Origin: Oscillospiraceae bacterium
Lineage (GTDB): Bacteria; Bacillota; Clostridia; Oscillospirales; Oscillospiraceae
Length of the DNA: 64,000 nt
Reading direction: 5' to 3'
Assembly (NCBI GenBank): GCA_902783035.1
Contig: CACZPK010000023.1
Location: 104,089-168,088, forward strand
A program made the translations under genes and the position numbers. This document shows, piece after piece, positions 2,820-63,834 of this stretch (position 1 is its first letter; every line of letters begins with the position of its first letter). Below the pieces are notes generated by a model, which worked only from the letters and a program-made list of their open reading frames with translations, made no database searches and was not told the DNA's origin.

Positions 2820-2848
2820 TTGACAAACTAGGCATAGCGTGCTATCAT
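2820..2848 (+). promoter_or_regulatory. Sigma-A-type promoter of the methionine transport operon
   Basis: TTGACA at 2820-2825 is separated by 17 bases from TATCAT at 2843-2848. Transcription would start near 2855, about 25 bases before the methionine-rich leader peptide. The gap between livF and this promoter is too short to hold an S-box or T-box. Confidence 0.75.
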
Positions 2849-2879: not shown

Positions 2880-2969
2880 ATGAAGCGTACTGTGACGATG
2901 ACCATGATGGAGATGTGCATGCGCATGCGTATGGACGTCTGTTTCGATATGCTCTCCGTCAGGGATTGA
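2880..2969 (+). CDS. Methionine-rich leader peptide of the met transport operon
   Basis: A 29-codon ORF with a good ribosome site (AGGAAAGGAG, 2861-2870) lies between the promoter and metQ. Nine of 29 residues are methionine, at positions 1, 7, 9, 10, 12, 14, 16, 18 and 24, and two are cysteine. The densest stretch is MTMMEMCMRMRM. Its stop at 2967-2969 lies 29 bases before a strong intrinsic terminator (2999-3034). The arrangement (promoter, short ORF rich in the regulated amino acid, terminator, then the transporter) is that of ribosome-mediated transcription attenuation. No homology is claimed; the call is from composition and placement. It is too short for most gene finders. Confidence 0.72.
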   Translation: MKRTVTMTMMEMCMRMRMDVCFDMLSVRD

Positions 2970-3034
2970 TCGCCGGATTGCGGCGCAAATCGTAAATGAC
3001 CGGAAGGCATATCAAGCCTTCCGGTTTCATTTTT
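2952..3034 (+). promoter_or_regulatory. Attenuator: terminator with a candidate antiterminator arm
   Basis: The terminator is a perfect 10-bp stem, ACCGGAAGGC (2999-3008) with GCCTTCCGGT (3016-3025), a seven-base loop and a T-rich tail to 3034. A small hairpin CGCCG-GATTG-CGGCG (2971-2985) precedes it. CTCTCCGTCA (2952-2961), codons just after the last Met of the leader, can pair imperfectly with TGACCGGAAG (2997-3006), which would sequester the 5' arm of the terminator. A ribosome stalled at Met codons would leave this arm free; one reaching the stop would cover it. The pairing is inferred by eye. Confidence 0.6.
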
Positions 3035-3066
3035 CAGCAAACAAAAAGCAGAAAGGAAGTATCCCC

Positions 3067-3912
3067 ATGAAAAAGCTCATTTCTCTTGCCCTTGCACTGG
3101 TATTGACCCTGTCCCTTGCCGCTTGCGGCGGCAAAAGCAAGTCCCTCACCATCGCCGTGCCGAATGACACAACCAACGAAGCGCGCGCGCTGATGCTGCT
3201 GGAAAACCTGGGCTACATCAAGCTCAAGGACGGCGCTGGCATCACCGCCACGAAGCTCGATATCACCGAGAACCCCCACAACATTGAGATCAACGAGATT
3301 GAGGCCGCGCAGCTGCCCAACGTCCTCAAGGATGTGGATTACGCCGTCATCAACTCCAACTACGCGCTCGACGGCGGGCTCAACCCCTCCAAGGACGCGC
3401 TCGGCATCGAAGGTTCCTTCTCCGCTTACGGCAACATTCTCTGCGTGAAGGAAGGCCGCGAGAACGATCCGATCATCAAGGCGCTGCTCGCCGCGCTGGA
3501 AAGCCAGCAGGTCGCGGACTACATCACCGACAAGTATGACGGCGCGGTCATCTCCGTCGTCGACCAGCCCACCGACGGCTACGACGCCTCCGTGGACTAT
3601 GACGCACTGAACGGCCAGACCGTCTCCGTCGCCGCCACGCCGACCCCGCACGCCGAGATCCTCAATGATGTGGTCAAGGGCATCCTCGCCGCCAAGGGCA
3701 TCACCCTTGATGTGAAGGAATTCACCGATTACGTCCAGCCCAACAACGTTGTGGACAGCGGCGAGATCGACGCCAACTACTTCCAGCACCTGCCCTATCT
3801 GGAGGACTTCAACGCCGAGAACGGCACGAAGGTCGTCAGCATCGGTGCGATCCACGTGGAGCCGATGGGACTCTACGGTGGCAAACAGACCACCCTTGAC
3901 GCGCTGAAATAA
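3067..3912 (+). CDS. metQ: MetQ/NlpA-family methionine-binding lipoprotein, circularly permuted
   Basis: This is a 281-residue secreted lipoprotein: a signal with lipobox LAAC at Cys20, then the NlpA/MetQ fold. The two halves are in reversed order. Residues 27-165 carry what is normally the C-terminal half (IAVPNDTTNEARALMLLE, IKLKDGAG, EAAQLPNVL, AVINSNYAL, LNPSKDAL). A linker of about 19 residues follows. Residues 185-281 carry the normal N-terminal half (ATPTPHAEIL, EFTDYVQPN, DANYFQHLPYLEDF, VEPMGLYGGK), and the protein ends at TTLDALK, where the family normally runs into VAIPND. It is the first gene after the Met leader and is followed by metN and metI, so its role as the substrate receptor of a methionine ABC importer is well supported. 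Confidence 0.9.
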   Translation: MKKLISLALALVLTLSLAACGGKSKSLTIAVPNDTTNEARALMLLENLGYIKLKDGAGITATKLDITENPHNIEINEIEAAQLPNVLKDVDYAVINSNYALDGGLNPSKDALGIEGSFSAYGNILCVKEGRENDPIIKALLAALESQQVADYITDKYDGAVISVVDQPTDGYDASVDYDALNGQTVSVAATPTPHAEILNDVVKGILAAKGITLDVKEFTDYVQPNNVVDSGEIDANYFQHLPYLEDFNAENGTKVVSIGAIHVEPMGLYGGKQTTLDALK

Positions 3913-3967: not shown

Positions 3968-4981
3968 ATGATCGAAATCAAAAACCTGTCCAAGACCTTC
4001 CGCACGGCGGAGGGGGAAGTCGAGGCGCTGAAGGACGTTTCTCTTTCCATTCCCGACGGCGATATTTTCGGCATCATCGGCATGTCCGGCGCGGGCAAAT
4101 CCACGCTGGTACGCACGATCAACATGCTCGAGCGCCCCACCGAGGGCAGCGTCATCATCGACGGCGTGGACATGGGCGCACTCAGCGAAGCGGAGCTGCG
4201 CAAAAAGCGCCGCGAAATCACTATGATTTTCCAGGGTTTCAATCTGCTCATGCAGAAGACCTGTCTGGACAACATCTGCTTCCCGCTGCGTCTCGCGGGC
4301 ATATCGGCGCCGCAGGCACGCGAACGCGCGCTTGCACTGCTGGAAACCGTGGGGCTTGCGGACAAGGCCAAGGCGTATCCCGCGCAGCTCTCCGGCGGAC
4401 AGCAGCAGCGCGTCGCCATTGCCCGCGCGCTGGCGACCGATCCAAAGGTTCTGCTTTGCGACGAGGCGACCAGCGCCCTTGACCCGACAACGACGGCGTC
4501 CATTCTGGAGTTGATCCGCTCGATCAACGAAATCACAGGCATCACCGCCATTCTGATCACACACCAGATGAGCGTTGTGGAAAGCATCTGCCGCCATGTT
4601 GCCATTCTCGACGGCGGTGTCATCGCCGAAGTCGGCGAGGTGGGCGAGGTCTTCTCCCACCCGAAGAGCGCGGCGGCACGCCGGCTCGTGTTCCCGGACG
4701 GCGACGCTGCGGCGTCCCTGACACGGGATCGGGACGAACACATCCTGCGCGTCGTGTTCAACGGCAATCAGGCGACGGCCACGCCGCTGATCGCCCACAT
4801 GGCGGTGGAAAAAGGCATAGAGGCAAACATCGCCTACGCCTCCACCAAGACCATCGACGGGCGGGAATTCGGCTCGATGCTGCTGGGCATCCGCGGCGGC
4901 GACAACGTGCTGCGCGAGGCGATCGGATATCTGACCAGAAACCCCGATATTCTGGCGGAGGAGGTGCATTTGGATGATTGA
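3968..4981 (+). CDS. metN: Methionine ABC transporter ATP-binding protein MetN
   Basis: This 337-residue ATPase powers methionine import. Walker A GMSGAGKST is at about residues 38-46, the signature is LSGGQQQRVAIARAL and Walker B ends in CDEATSALDP. Residues from about 250 to the end form the extra C-terminal NIL/ACT-like domain typical of MetN, which in characterised homologues binds methionine and inhibits transport when the cell is replete. The start at 3968 follows GAGGTG by seven bases. Its stop overlaps metI by eight bases. Confidence 0.95.
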   Translation: MIEIKNLSKTFRTAEGEVEALKDVSLSIPDGDIFGIIGMSGAGKSTLVRTINMLERPTEGSVIIDGVDMGALSEAELRKKRREITMIFQGFNLLMQKTCLDNICFPLRLAGISAPQARERALALLETVGLADKAKAYPAQLSGGQQQRVAIARALATDPKVLLCDEATSALDPTTTASILELIRSINEITGITAILITHQMSVVESICRHVAILDGGVIAEVGEVGEVFSHPKSAAARRLVFPDGDAAASLTRDRDEHILRVVFNGNQATATPLIAHMAVEKGIEANIAYASTKTIDGREFGSMLLGIRGGDNVLREAIGYLTRNPDILAEEVHLDD

Positions 4982-5684
4982 CAAGCTGTTCGCGCCCGAG
5001 GTACTGGCGGAGGCAGGGGATATCATTCGTACACAATTTCCGCTGGCGATCTGGGAAACGGTATACGTCACCATTCTGTCCACGGCGTTTGCCATCATCA
5101 TCGGCCTGCCGCTGGGCGTGATCCTCGTCGTGGGCGAAAAGGGCGGCGTCAAGCCGCTGCCCGCATGGCTGATGCGCACTTTGAACGTCGTGATCAACCT
5201 GCTGCGCTCGGTGCCCTTTCTGATCCTGATGGTGCTGGTATTTCCGCTCACGCGTCTGATCGTCGGCACCGTTGTCGGCACGGTGGCCAGCATCGTGCCG
5301 CTGGTGATTGCAGCGTTCCCGTTTGTCGCGCGTCTTGCCGAAGGCAGTCTGCGCGAGGTAAACCCGAACACCATTGAAATGGCGCAGAGCCTCGGCGCGT
5401 CCCCGATGCAGATCATCACGCGCGTGATGATCCCTGAGAGCGTACCGAGCCTCATTTCCAACGCGACCATCGCCATTACAACCATTCTCGGATACTCCGC
5501 CATGAGCGGCATCATCGGCGGCGGCGGTCTCGGCAAGATCGCGATGAACTACGGCTACTACCGTTACAAATACCTCATCATGGTGGCGGCGGTGGTTCTG
5601 CTGATCGTCCTGGTGCAGGTGTTCCAGACCGTCGGCACGCATCTCGCCGTCCGGACGGACAAACGTCTGAAAAACAAGACCTGA
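4974..5684 (+). CDS. metI: Methionine ABC transporter permease MetI
   Basis: This is the membrane subunit of the methionine importer, 236 residues with about five hydrophobic helices. RSVPFLILMVLVFPLTR and the cytoplasmic EAA-type loop AEGSLREVNPNTIEMAQSLG (about residues 122-141) are typical of MetI. It overlaps the end of metN, so expression is probably coupled. It is the last gene of the operon, followed by a strong terminator. Confidence 0.95.
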   Translation: MIDKLFAPEVLAEAGDIIRTQFPLAIWETVYVTILSTAFAIIIGLPLGVILVVGEKGGVKPLPAWLMRTLNVVINLLRSVPFLILMVLVFPLTRLIVGTVVGTVASIVPLVIAAFPFVARLAEGSLREVNPNTIEMAQSLGASPMQIITRVMIPESVPSLISNATIAITTILGYSAMSGIIGGGGLGKIAMNYGYYRYKYLIMVAAVVLLIVLVQVFQTVGTHLAVRTDKRLKNKT

Positions 5685-5690
5685 ACGAGC

Positions 5691-5729
5691 GAACCGGAGA
5701 GGTATCATCCTCTCCGGTTCCCTTTATTT
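5691..5729 (+). terminator. Terminator of the metQNI operon
   Basis: A 12-bp perfect stem, GAACCGGAGAGG with CCTCTCCGGTTC, around a TATCAT loop is followed by a T-rich tail. It separates metI from the converging nnrD gene. Confidence 0.88.
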
Positions 5730-6603
5730 ATACAACCTCTGCAAATGCCGCCGCCAGTCCCTCGTCCGCTACGTCTCCTGGCGTAACACAGTACGGCGTC
5801 AGTCGCTGCGCCAAAATATCCCCCGCGCGGGCGTGGAGCCAGACGCCGCACGCTGCCGCGTCCGCCGCACTCGCACCCTGGGCAAGCAGCGCGGCGATCA
5901 CGCCCGTGAGCACATCGCCGCTGCCGCCCTTGGCAAGCGCGGAACCGCCGCAGGTGTTTTCCAGCACCGATCCATTCGGCAGGGCGACCAGCGTGCGGTG
6001 CCCCTTGCGCACCAGTATACAGCCGTGGGCTGCAGCAAACGCCCGCGCGGTCTCCTCGCGGTCCCGTGCCGACAATTCGGCGATCGAAACCCCCAACAGC
6101 CGCGCCAGCTCGCCGTCATGCGGCGTAAGCACCGTCACGCGGCCTCGCCGCGCGTCGAGAACCGACAGATCCTCCGACAGCGCGTTCAGTCCGTCCGCAT
6201 CCAGCACAACGCCTTGCTCCGCCTCGCGCAGCAGCGCGGCGGTAAGTGCCGTCGTTCCGGCGCTGCGTCCGAGGCCGGGCCCCAGCGCCAGCACATTGCA
6301 GCCGCGCATTTTCTCCCTGATCGGCGCCAGCGCATCCGCCGACAGGCGCTCGCCATCGTCGGGCAGGGGAAAGGGCATTGCCGAAACGCATTTCTCCGCC
6401 TCAACCGCCCAAATACAGCGCGGCACACCGAGGTAGACCAGCCCGCAGCCGGCGCGCACGGCAGCCTGCGCCGTGAGGTACGGCGCACCCGTATAGCCGA
6501 CCGCTCCGCCAACGACAAGCAGCTTGCCGAAGTTGCCCTTATGTCCGTCCGCCTTGCGCTGTGGCAACGCATCGCGGACATAGGCCGCGTCGATCCGAGT
6601 CAT
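5728..6603 (-). CDS. nnrD: ADP-dependent (S)-NAD(P)H-hydrate dehydratase
   Basis: This 291-residue protein is the YjeF C-terminal (ribokinase-like) domain that repairs hydrated NADH and NADPH using ADP. Recognisable motifs are GNFGKLLVVGG near residue 23, ALGPGLGR around 105, TPHDGELARLL near 157 and, near 223, AKGGSGDVLTGVIAALLAQG with the catalytic Asp of GGSGD. The epimerase (YjeF N-terminal) domain found fused in many bacteria is absent, so it is either encoded elsewhere or missing. It is a single gene, converging with metI. Confidence 0.92.
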   Translation of the reverse strand: MTRIDAAYVRDALPQRKADGHKGNFGKLLVVGGAVGYTGAPYLTAQAAVRAGCGLVYLGVPRCIWAVEAEKCVSAMPFPLPDDGERLSADALAPIREKMRGCNVLALGPGLGRSAGTTALTAALLREAEQGVVLDADGLNALSEDLSVLDARRGRVTVLTPHDGELARLLGVSIAELSARDREETARAFAAAHGCILVRKGHRTLVALPNGSVLENTCGGSALAKGGSGDVLTGVIAALLAQGASAADAAACGVWLHARAGDILAQRLTPYCVTPGDVADEGLAAAFAEVV

Positions 6604-6712
6604 GTGATCACATCCTTTGTCTGAATTTTACCATGCCTGCTGAAAAAACGGTAGAAAAACCTTGCATGGCGTGATAAGATGTTTCGCGCAACAGAAAAAG
6701 AGAGGAAATGGT

Positions 6713-7483
6713 ATGGACACATTTCTCAAAACCTGTCTCATTGTCTGCCCGCTGGTGTTTCTTGCGGGCTTTGTCGATTCCGTGGCGGGCGGCGGCGGGA
6801 TCATCTCGCTGCCCGCCTATCTGATGGCCGGCCTGCCCGCCCACCTTGCCGCGGGCACGAACAAGGTCGTCAACGGCTGCGGCACGCTGATGGCGACAAC
6901 CAAATATTTCCGCAACGGCAAGGTACGCATCCGGGCCGCGGCTGCGGCTGCCGCCGGGGCGCTGCTCGGCTCCGTGATCGGAGCGCAGCTCGCGTCCATG
7001 ATCCCGGAAGCAACGCTCAAGACCATCATGCTTGTTGCGCTGCCCTGCGTGGCGGTGTTTCTCGTCATCAAACGCGACTTTGGCGGAGATGATACAACTG
7101 CGGATACGCTTGCACCGGGGCGGGAGCTTGTCATTTCCGCGCTCATCGGCCTTGGTGTCGGCTGCTACGACGGACTGCTCGGCCCCGGCACCGGCACGTT
7201 CATGATCATCTGCTTTACGGCCTTTCTCTCCATGGATCTTCTCACCGCGTCCGGCTGCGCCAAGGCGGCAAACCTGGCTTCCAACATTGGCAGCGCCGTG
7301 GTGTGGATTCTGCACGGCAGCGTACTGTGGAAGCTTGCCGTGCCCGCGATCGTCTGCAACATTCTGGGCGCCTGGTTCGGCGCGCGCTATGCCATCCGCG
7401 GCGGCAGCAAAAAGGTGCGCAGTATGATGTTCATTGTGCTGGGGCTGTTGTTTCTGAAAATGCTCTATGACCTGTTCGCGTAA
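6713..7483 (+). CDS. TSUP family (TauE/SafE) anion exporter
   Basis: This 256-residue membrane protein has about eight hydrophobic segments arranged as two repeats. The first repeat carries FVDSVAGGGGIISLPAYL and PAHLAAGTNK and the second GLGVGCYDGLLGPGTGTF; both are hallmarks of the sulfite/sulfonate TauE/SafE exporter family. The ATG at 6713 is chosen because AGAGAGG lies seven bases upstream and an earlier in-frame ATG gives a charged extension. The direction of transport and the substrate cannot be read from the sequence. The convergent neighbour is an IclR regulator, but no shared control is evident. Confidence 0.88.
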   Translation: MDTFLKTCLIVCPLVFLAGFVDSVAGGGGIISLPAYLMAGLPAHLAAGTNKVVNGCGTLMATTKYFRNGKVRIRAAAAAAAGALLGSVIGAQLASMIPEATLKTIMLVALPCVAVFLVIKRDFGGDDTTADTLAPGRELVISALIGLGVGCYDGLLGPGTGTFMIICFTAFLSMDLLTASGCAKAANLASNIGSAVVWILHGSVLWKLAVPAIVCNILGAWFGARYAIRGGSKKVRSMMFIVLGLLFLKMLYDLFA

Positions 7484-7536
7484 AATCGTGCGCAGTGCGG
7501 CGGAAGACCCGGTTTTCGGGTTTTCCGCCGCGTTTT

Positions 7537-8319
7537 CTATCTCTGTGCCTCCCGCCAGCCAAGCGCGGCAGAGAGCAGCGCCGCCTGCCGCGCCGTTTCC
7601 TCCGTTGCGGCGCGGAACTCCTCCGACTGCACGCGCCGGAACAAGCCAACCAGGCCAAGGGCATATCGCACCGCGCCCGTGCTGTCCCGCACGGGCGCTG
7701 AAACCGAACGCAGACCGATCTTGTACTCGCCGTCCTCCACGGCAAATCCGTCTTGCCGGATGTGTTCCAGACCGGCGAGCAGCACCTCCGCATCCGTAAG
7801 CGTGTGCGGCGTATAGGGCGCAAGCCCGGCGTCCGACAGGCGTTTGCGCGCCTCACCCGCGGGGAGATACGCGAGAAGCAGCTTGCCCTGCGACGTGGCA
7901 TGCAGCGGCAGGCGCGAGCCGATCTCCGGCACCACCTGCACCCCCGCGCCGCCCGTGCACTGGTCGAAGGAGATGACGTGGTTGCCTTCCAAAATCGACA
8001 GGAACGCGCTTCCGCCCGTCCGTTCGGACAGCAGTTCCAAATAGGGCCGCGCCACGCGGGACACATCCCAGCCCGCGCTGACGGCACAGCCGCATTCAAA
8101 CAGCCGTACGCCCAGCGCATACCGCCCATCGGCACGCTGCTCCACCATTGCATGTTCCCGCAAGGTCGAAAGCAGCGCATACACCGTGCTTTTGGGATGG
8201 CCCACGGCAGCGGACAGCTCTTGCAGGCTCATAGGCGCGCGTCGCGCCAGCAGCGCCTCCAGCAGCTCCATCGCCTTTGCGACGGCGTGCACCTGTGCGG
8301 TTTTTCTTTCTTTTGACAC
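7537..8319 (-). CDS. IclR family transcriptional regulator
   Basis: This 260-residue protein has an N-terminal winged helix-turn-helix (about residues 12-70; MSLQELSAAVGHPKSTVYAL marks the recognition helix) and a C-terminal IclR effector domain (DQCTGGAGVQVVPEIGSRLPLHATSQGKLLLA). I place the start at the GTG at 8319, seven bases after AAGGAAAGGAAG, rather than the ATG at 8409, whose 30 extra residues do not resemble the family. IclR proteins usually sense small carbon acids. It lies upstream of and divergent from modA, with about 185 bases between them, but a link to molybdate is not supported by family knowledge. Confidence 0.88.
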   Translation of the reverse strand: MSKERKTAQVHAVAKAMELLEALLARRAPMSLQELSAAVGHPKSTVYALLSTLREHAMVEQRADGRYALGVRLFECGCAVSAGWDVSRVARPYLELLSERTGGSAFLSILEGNHVISFDQCTGGAGVQVVPEIGSRLPLHATSQGKLLLAYLPAGEARKRLSDAGLAPYTPHTLTDAEVLLAGLEHIRQDGFAVEDGEYKIGLRSVSAPVRDSTGAVRYALGLVGLFRRVQSEEFRAATEETARQAALLSAALGWREAQR

Positions 8320-36495: not shown

Positions 36496-36513
36496 GACAC
36501 TAACCAAATAAAG

Positions 36514-36680
36514 TTGTGATAGAGGCGCGGCCGACAAGAGTAACTCCGAAAAGCGACAGGAATCGCGGAGCGAAAGGGGAGGCCGCCGAGGGTTGATACG
36601 GGTTCCTGTCCGTATCTTCGCCGGATCGTCGGGAAATACCCGCCGGACTGTCGCCGAGAGGCGGAGAGCTGTCATGACAA
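36514..36680 (+). ncRNA. Lysine riboswitch (L-box)
   Basis: The stretch shows the L-box landmarks in order: GATAGAGGCGCG, AAGAGTA, GCGAAAGGGGAGGCCGCCGA, a variable stem, ACCCGCCGGACTGTCGCC and GAGAGCTGTCATGAC. TTGTGAT at the front can close helix P1 with ATGACAA at 36674-36680, one mismatch. Lysine binding would favour the downstream terminator. Confidence 0.92.
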
Positions 36681-63592: not shown

Positions 63593-63828
63593 AAAAAACG
63601 CCCCAAGCCGGTTTTAGTCGGCTCAGGGCGAGTTAATCATAACCCGTGGTTCCACCTGAATTCGCGTCTGGCTGACGCGCACTCTTTCCCGGTAACGGCG
63701 GGGTGCCGGCGGCGCATTTCCGCGCCGCTGCTCAAGGGCGCCTTCTTTTCCGCTCCGTAAAAGGCTTGCACCGGCCGCCTTCTCTCTGCATACGTTCCGC
63801 GAAAAATACTGTTCCCTGTCAACGCAGT
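63593..63828 (-). ncRNA. T-box riboswitch of glyQS
   Basis: On the minus strand the leader has stem I with AGAGAGAAGGC and GGCCGGTGCAAGCC, a probable specifier GGC (in AGAAGGCGCC), the T-box AGGTGGAACCACGGG (63656-63642) and a terminator GCCCTGAGCCGAC/GCCGGCTTGGGGC type stem followed by six Ts (63630-63593). Uncharged tRNA-Gly would favour antitermination. Confidence 0.9.
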
Positions 63829-63834
63829 GAGGTC

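Follow-up and report, generated by a model that had tools for sequence, protein, structure and literature searches.

The gene at 3067–3912 of the window (the whole stretch of 64,000 nucleotides analysed here, from contig CACZPK010000023.1 of an Oscillospiraceae bacterium) raises the question of whether a methionine-binding lipoprotein of the MetQ/NlpA family can carry its two halves in exchanged order and still serve its importer. An earlier note, made from the letters alone, had read the gene as a natural circular permutant. The features of the locus are collected in Table 1.

Table 1. Features of the permuted metQ locus, with positions in the window, strand and basis of assignment
Feature	Position	Strand	Basis
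Putative sigma-70-like promoter, TTGACA-17-TATCAT	2820..2848	+	Consensus scan, 11/12 matches
29-codon Met-rich leader ORF with 9 Met, putative attenuator peptide	2880..2969	+	ORF, enrichment in P1 loci
Intrinsic-terminator-like hairpin with T-run, in the leader–metQ gap	2998..3036	+	11-pair stem
metQ, circularly permuted (whole gene, 281 aa)	3067..3912	+	ORF, motif order, Pfam and PDB alignments
Lipoprotein signal peptide with lipobox LAAC, Cys20	3067..3126	+	Sequence
Very short tether, Cys20 to first strand	3127..3144	+	Tether comparison, P1 against unpermuted
Residues 27–165, PF03180 positions 99–234 (second part of the family, IAVPND..INSNYA..YGNIL)	3145..3561	+	hmmscan
New linker, residues 166–184, old C-terminus joined to old N-terminus	3562..3618	+	Conservation and model
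Residues 185–281, PF03180 positions 1–95 (first part of the family, DYVQPN, NYFQHLPY)	3619..3909	+	hmmscan
metN, ATPase with C-terminal NIL domain	3968..4981	+	ABC_tran and NIL; TIGR02314 MetN best NCBIfam match, below cut-off
metI, permease	4974..5684	+	BPD_transp_1; NF008049 MetI 5.4e-58, slightly below cut-off

Order of the two halves

The reversed lobe order claimed for the single 281-aa reading frame is borne out by separate alignment of the two parts, which the note had proposed as a check. Each part matches strongly on its own, residues 28–163 to PF03180 positions 99–234 (hmmscan, E = 1.2e-47) and residues 186–281 to positions 1–95 (E = 3.2e-33). The protein as a whole scores 272 bits against a curated cut-off of 27, split into two stretches; a colinear single-domain match to PF03180 was not obtained, the order being 99–234 and then 1–95, and the protein is therefore a permuted variant and not an ordinary member of the family. 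TIGR00363 (NCBIfam), run on the permuted MetQ alone, gave 159.6, under its cut-off of 228.85. Moreover, all 22 PDB sequences among the matches listed align in two stretches, and both of the alignments examined show the swap. A second PF03180 gene was not found in the window's own metagenome-assembled genome (MAG), which is 85% complete.

The two halves are joined by a linker of about 19 residues that had been described as new and that proves real: among 60 members of P1, the clade of this gene, six of the 19 linker positions reach at least 90% conservation, and the linker lies in a confidently modelled region (AlphaFold, pLDDT 95–98 in the 10-residue blocks from 161 to 190). The protein ends at TTLDALK, which the note took as the exact point where the family would continue; the break itself, however, seems to fall past the hinge strand, in the loop that directly follows it, and not within the strand itself, a placement made because of the strand order of the model and the unpermuted relatives, which read SLDELxxGxxIAVPND or similar at this loop. 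Taken together, the evidence is best explained by a natural circular permutation in the methionine-binding lipoprotein MetQ encoded at 3067–3912, a reading that we hold with high confidence.

Methionine contacts, structural model and selection

In NmMetQ, according to the available text of PMC6739813, one lobe contacts methionine through R156, N213 and N238, and the other through Y81, F98, H100 and Y103. We mapped these contacts from motifs and their spacing, one lobe having small indels; their counterparts in the permuted protein are R40, N96 and N123, within residues 27–165, and Y222, F239, H241 and Y244, within residues 185–281. All seven mapped contacts are invariant in the 60 P1 proteins, and their equivalents are invariant in the four proteins of a second permuted group, P2.

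The AlphaFold (AF2) model of the permuted protein has a pLDDT of 93.6 and a pTM of 0.84, with a similar strand–helix order in both lobes. Its best Foldseek matches in the PDB are MetQ-family proteins, aligned piecewise (the rank 1 hit spans 141 columns with 55% identity, and 4yah, E. coli MetQ, spans 87 columns at 0.8 Å), and from rank 18 onwards they are other binding proteins with poor rmsd. Because the program aligns sequentially, the TM scores normalised by the model (0.27–0.42 in the first 20 rows) refer to pieces only. The structure prediction suggested in the note thus yielded a confident model with best matches in the MetQ family, but the superposition only in pieces. The note had also held that unpermuted copies in this clade, together with halves that fold otherwise, would speak against a permutant; unpermuted copies do exist in relatives, yet the solved structures that best match the model, in pieces, are those of the MetQ family.

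The gene is under purifying selection among its near relatives. Against the five nearest relatives tried, dN/dS was 0.085–0.133 over residues 27–281, with 0.017–0.105 for lobe 1 and 0.082–0.145 for lobe 2; the 19 codons of the linker gave 0.19–1.0, above both lobes, and the linker is thus the least constrained part. One of four more distant comparisons gave 0.099, and the other three had no usable dS. The permuted protein would adopt the two-lobed trap fold usual for the family, its lipid anchor shifted from lobe 1 to lobe 2, and would bind methionine and pass it to its own MetNI. The invariant mapped contacts, the confident model, a dN/dS of about 0.1 and the metN and metI genes downstream all agree with the earlier judgement that the permutant is probably functional.

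Distribution of the permuted form

A scan of GTDB contigs confirmed at least 583 relatives among at least 595 candidate stretches; the best 80 were kept, and their order was classified with an HMM made from 14 unpermuted relatives. The permuted order was found in all 80, isolates included, in a set that was ranked by similarity to the query and is hence biased to permuted forms. The titles of these loci name Oscillospiraceae, Lachnospiraceae, isolates of Faecalibacterium prausnitzii and of Oscillibacter, [Eubacterium] infirmum NCTC12940, one MAG of Erysipelotrichaceae and two of spirochaetes. Genome samples with less bias show the permuted form as a minority. Among 99 relatives searched, 41 genomes had a PF03180 match, permuted in 15, 13 of which, with the window genome included, come from the same genus as the window; of 391 genomes sampled from the class, 169 had the match, which was permuted in at least 18 (the window genome again included), spanning ten family codes, with the P2 genome G756 in addition; and in a phylum sample of 398 genomes, 210 had the match and at least three the permuted form.

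The window genome is itself a fragmented MAG of 154 contigs, from which an assembly or binning artefact could be suspected. We rejected this explanation and give it practically no weight: the same order stands in the 80 other loci, isolates among them, and in a one-contig genome of the class sample (G866). Related genomes with the same order, for which the note had proposed to search, are therefore at hand, and the assembly join that it had named as a possible refutation is excluded. Two genomes of the window's genus (G006 and G011) hold both a permuted and an unpermuted MetQ; their unpermuted copies (L015, L020) group with relatives of P2 in the IQ-TREE tree described below.

Two permuted lineages

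In the loci fetched, 186 reading frames were classified, 111 as permuted and 75 as unpermuted. The permuted ones make up P1 (107 frames) and P2 (4 proteins). On 182 distinct rows, FastTree placed the 103 distinct P1 proteins in one group (0.892) and the four P2 proteins in another (1.0). IQ-TREE on 79 chosen rows (26 of the 103 P1, all four P2 and 49 of the 75 unpermuted proteins) gave P1 as one branch (100/100) beside the unpermuted L012 and L137 (84/90), and P2 (100/100), with a long stem branch (0.87), nested in a different unpermuted group (100/99). The sister relation of P1 to L012 and L137 has moderate support; in the tree of lobe 1 alone, L006 and L013 lie nearer to P1 (74/77). The P1 branch in single-lobe trees is weak in FastTree (0.487 and 0.101) and stands at 100/98 and 100/97 in IQ-TREE on the 79 rows.

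We also considered P1 as a chimera of two diverged metQ paralogs, as the lobe 2 tree first placed P1 away from L012 and L137. Holding P1 with these two gave a higher likelihood in lobe 2 (p-AU 0.647), and in lobe 1 the grouping of P1 with the other unpermuted set was not clearly rejected (p 0.128). There is thus no good evidence for a chimera.

P2 was first met as a divergent colinear hit in G756 and was then found in four genera among 299 genomes sampled from one family; a class sample of 391 genomes returned G756 again only. An apparent further P2 genome, G598, turned out to have two ordinary metQ genes in tandem. The breakpoints of P1 and P2 coincide within about three residues, judged by HMM alignment edges, which, together with the long P2 stem, would be expected if both shared one permutation and the tree had been misled by fast evolution. 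Forcing P1 and P2 into one clade, however, costs 120 log-likelihood units (p-AU 6e-6) and is rejected also by lobe 1 alone (p 3.6e-4), p-values that are weakened by the grouping having been named after the tree was seen; moreover, a motif like GVxGxxNxxW, recognised by eye, ties P2 to its unpermuted neighbours L182, L183 and L187. A single origin is accordingly improbable in our judgement. Since the single clade is rejected and P2 stands among different unpermuted MetQ proteins, two permutations are the best reading, and P2 appears to be a second lineage, probably permuted independently at the same place. The permutant reading of the note is in this way supported and widened, to a widespread form whose clade is nested in normal MetQ and to a second group of probably independent origin.

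Origin of the permutation

In the permuted gene the 19-residue linker would connect the former ends, the new ends would lie in the loop that follows the first hinge strand, and a lipoprotein signal peptide precedes the second part of the family (lobe 2). The probable route is that metQ was duplicated in tandem and in phase and that the outer halves were then lost, much as the note had supposed. This origin is plausible because an in-phase tandem pair exists: in L191 (1051–2811, genome G598), downstream of a metI-like permease gene, two unpermuted metQ genes share a reading frame and are separated by one stop. Such a pair is what the duplication model requires as a precursor, but it is neither fused nor permuted, and the model is not proven; no fused double MetQ (L1-L2-L1-L2) was found among the 186 classified frames, which come from loci fetched for good matches.

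The lack of that intermediate lends some weight to fission and fusion, by which the same anatomy would come from half-genes or from two metQ fragments joined without homology. By eye, too, clear homology of the linker to an unpermuted tether is confined to the residues immediately preceding the first strand, and some partial PF03180 matches occur among relatives (G008, G034, G061, G092). Against this, the 186 frames, from loci fetched for good matches, are all either full permuted or full unpermuted forms, metQ genes do occur in tandem and in phase, and G601 has three metQ-type matches in a row. We regard fission and fusion as unlikely, although deserving of attention, and favour duplication with loss of the outer halves. 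A different kind of fusion was seen by eye in L026 (G090), where a 577-aa frame joins an amino-acid-binding-type substrate-binding domain in frame to an unpermuted MetQ domain.

The metN and metI neighbourhood

As had been stated for this in-frame gene, metN and metI lie beside it, directly downstream on the same strand. Of the 67 permuted loci that have 2.5 kb or more of downstream sequence, 62 have metN and 64 have metI after metQ. Where a metI frame was found nearby, it lies downstream in all 74 P1 loci and upstream in 66 of the 68 unpermuted loci, the two exceptions being the unpermuted operon of L089 and L012. A general rule that permutation goes with a metQ-first operon fails on P2, since three of its four loci have metI upstream and one, L171, is Q-N-I; operon order and permutation are thus separate matters.

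L012 comes from a genome of the same family and, with L137, stands next to P1 in the tree as an unpermuted MetQ. Its operon is Q-N-I, with a Met-rich leader frame and a hairpin with T-run ahead of it and a promoter-like site seen by eye, which suggests that the P1 event probably took place in situ, within an operon already arranged leader-Q-N-I. In L089, a Treponema MAG, a complete unpermuted metQ-N-I operon (150–2766) and a complete permuted one (5001–7568) lie about 2 kb apart, which suggests transfer of the whole permuted operon; the permuted protein there has a signal peptide that lacks a lipobox.

A candidate methionine attenuator

The Met-rich frame and the hairpin upstream of metQ fit ribosome-mediated attenuation by Met-tRNA supply, and we regard them as a candidate methionine attenuator by which metQ expression would probably rise when Met-tRNA is short. 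A leader rule of at least six Met and at least 20% Met, applied to loci with at least 200 nt upstream, was passed in 30 of 97 P1, 1 of 71 unpermuted and 0 of 3 P2 loci, and in 3 of 775 control upstreams, one of which is the L062 leader itself; a looser rule gave 36/100 permuted and 3/72 unpermuted loci. Of the 30 leader-bearing P1 loci, 29 have a hairpin with T-run after the leader. Any such hairpin occurs in 59 of 97 P1 and 22 of 71 unpermuted upstreams, so that the hairpin alone is common, and by count the single terminator-like hairpin of the scanned stretch is not significant against a shuffle average of 1.5. No Rfam element was found at metQ above gathering score in the window; elsewhere in it, a T-box leader (63621–63831, minus strand) and a lysine riboswitch (36512–36679, plus strand) exceed that score. 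One account of Firmicutes leader peptides we take to be by Naville and Gautheret. Its available text describes regular leader peptides for hisS and does not mention a methionine leader (PMC2965389).

Permutation could release docking constraints, and the permuted protein might have ceased to import methionine in favour of another ligand or a sensor role. This is a poor prospect given the invariance of the seven mapped methionine contacts, the presence of metN and metI downstream in most loci, the single branch formed by MetI of 74 P1 loci (FastTree, 145 MetI, support 0.877) and the Met-rich leader ahead of part of the clade. Methionine import through MetNI remains the preferred function.

Lipid anchor and tether

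C20 is conserved in at least 90% of the 60 P1 members. Six P1 members fail the lipobox pattern, four of which (L086, L089, L111, L112) lack the lipobox Cys by eye; L111 and L112 are from Clostridia MAGs and have a permuted MetQ with a signal peptide and metN and metI downstream. Four Faecalibacterium loci (L104, L108, L109, L101) have permuted MetQ with signal peptides that look twin-arginine-like by eye and are possibly Tat-exported lipoproteins; L108, the sole one of the four tested, exceeds the TIGR01409 cut-off.

With strand starts that are approximate, the tether from Cys to the first strand has a median of 7 residues in P1 (range 5–32; 100 of 107 frames measured) and about 21 in unpermuted proteins (range 8–50; 54 of 75). 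The P2 tethers measure 8, 17, 27 and 57 residues, so the short tether is a trait of P1 only. The MetI permease is a homodimer, and with the similar layout of the lobes a swap of the anchored lobe could be tolerated. We put forward tentatively, and with limited confidence, that MetQ is a repeatable natural target of permutation, in which alike lobes and the MetI homodimer keep docking workable after the anchor swap; docking of the permutant may then place its anchor on the opposite MetI subunit, and selection may have favoured the very short tether of P1. In E. coli and N. meningitidis, lipidation matters for MetQ–MetNI, according to the available text of PMC8416018.

Relation to known systems and significance

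Both halves of the permuted protein are homologous to those of canonical MetQ/NlpA proteins (PF03180; E. coli, N. meningitidis), with which it shares the mapped contacts, the lipoprotein nature and the metN and metI neighbours; it differs in its swapped halves and new linker, and in an anchor that sits on the other lobe by a shorter tether. The MetQ/NlpA protein presumably has a type II fold, and the best matches of the permutant are PF03180 and MetQ structures, not the type I sugar-binding fold of Cluster Bc. The latter is represented by TpMglB-2 (Tp0684), which the available text of PMC4990184 describes as 'Type Ic / Cluster Bc', a circularly permuted sugar-binding lipoprotein of treponemes and Gram-positive gut bacteria with a type I fold and an additional, fourth hinge cross-over. 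Like the permuted MetQ, TpMglB-2, as described there, is an ABC substrate-binding lipoprotein that has been circularly permuted in nature; unlike it, the permuted MetQ has its whole front half moved and is a methionine-binding NlpA protein. Among the open-licence papers listed for permuted MetQ, NlpA and substrate-, solute- or periplasmic-binding proteins, covered by titles and the starts of abstracts, no described permuted MetQ was found, in line with the remark of the note that none was known, and TpMglB-2, by its available text a sugar binder, is the sole described natural permutation of a substrate-binding protein that we met.

The permuted MetQ is real, widespread and probably functional, and a second independent event is probable. 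The permuted form stands beside metN and metI in many gut Clostridia, Faecalibacterium prausnitzii among them. Models of colinear domains split such proteins in two, so they could pass for fragments. With unpermuted relatives nearby and a probable second event at the same breakpoint, the family offers a natural experiment on the fixation of circular permutations, one that bears also on how the position of the lipid anchor affects an ABC importer.
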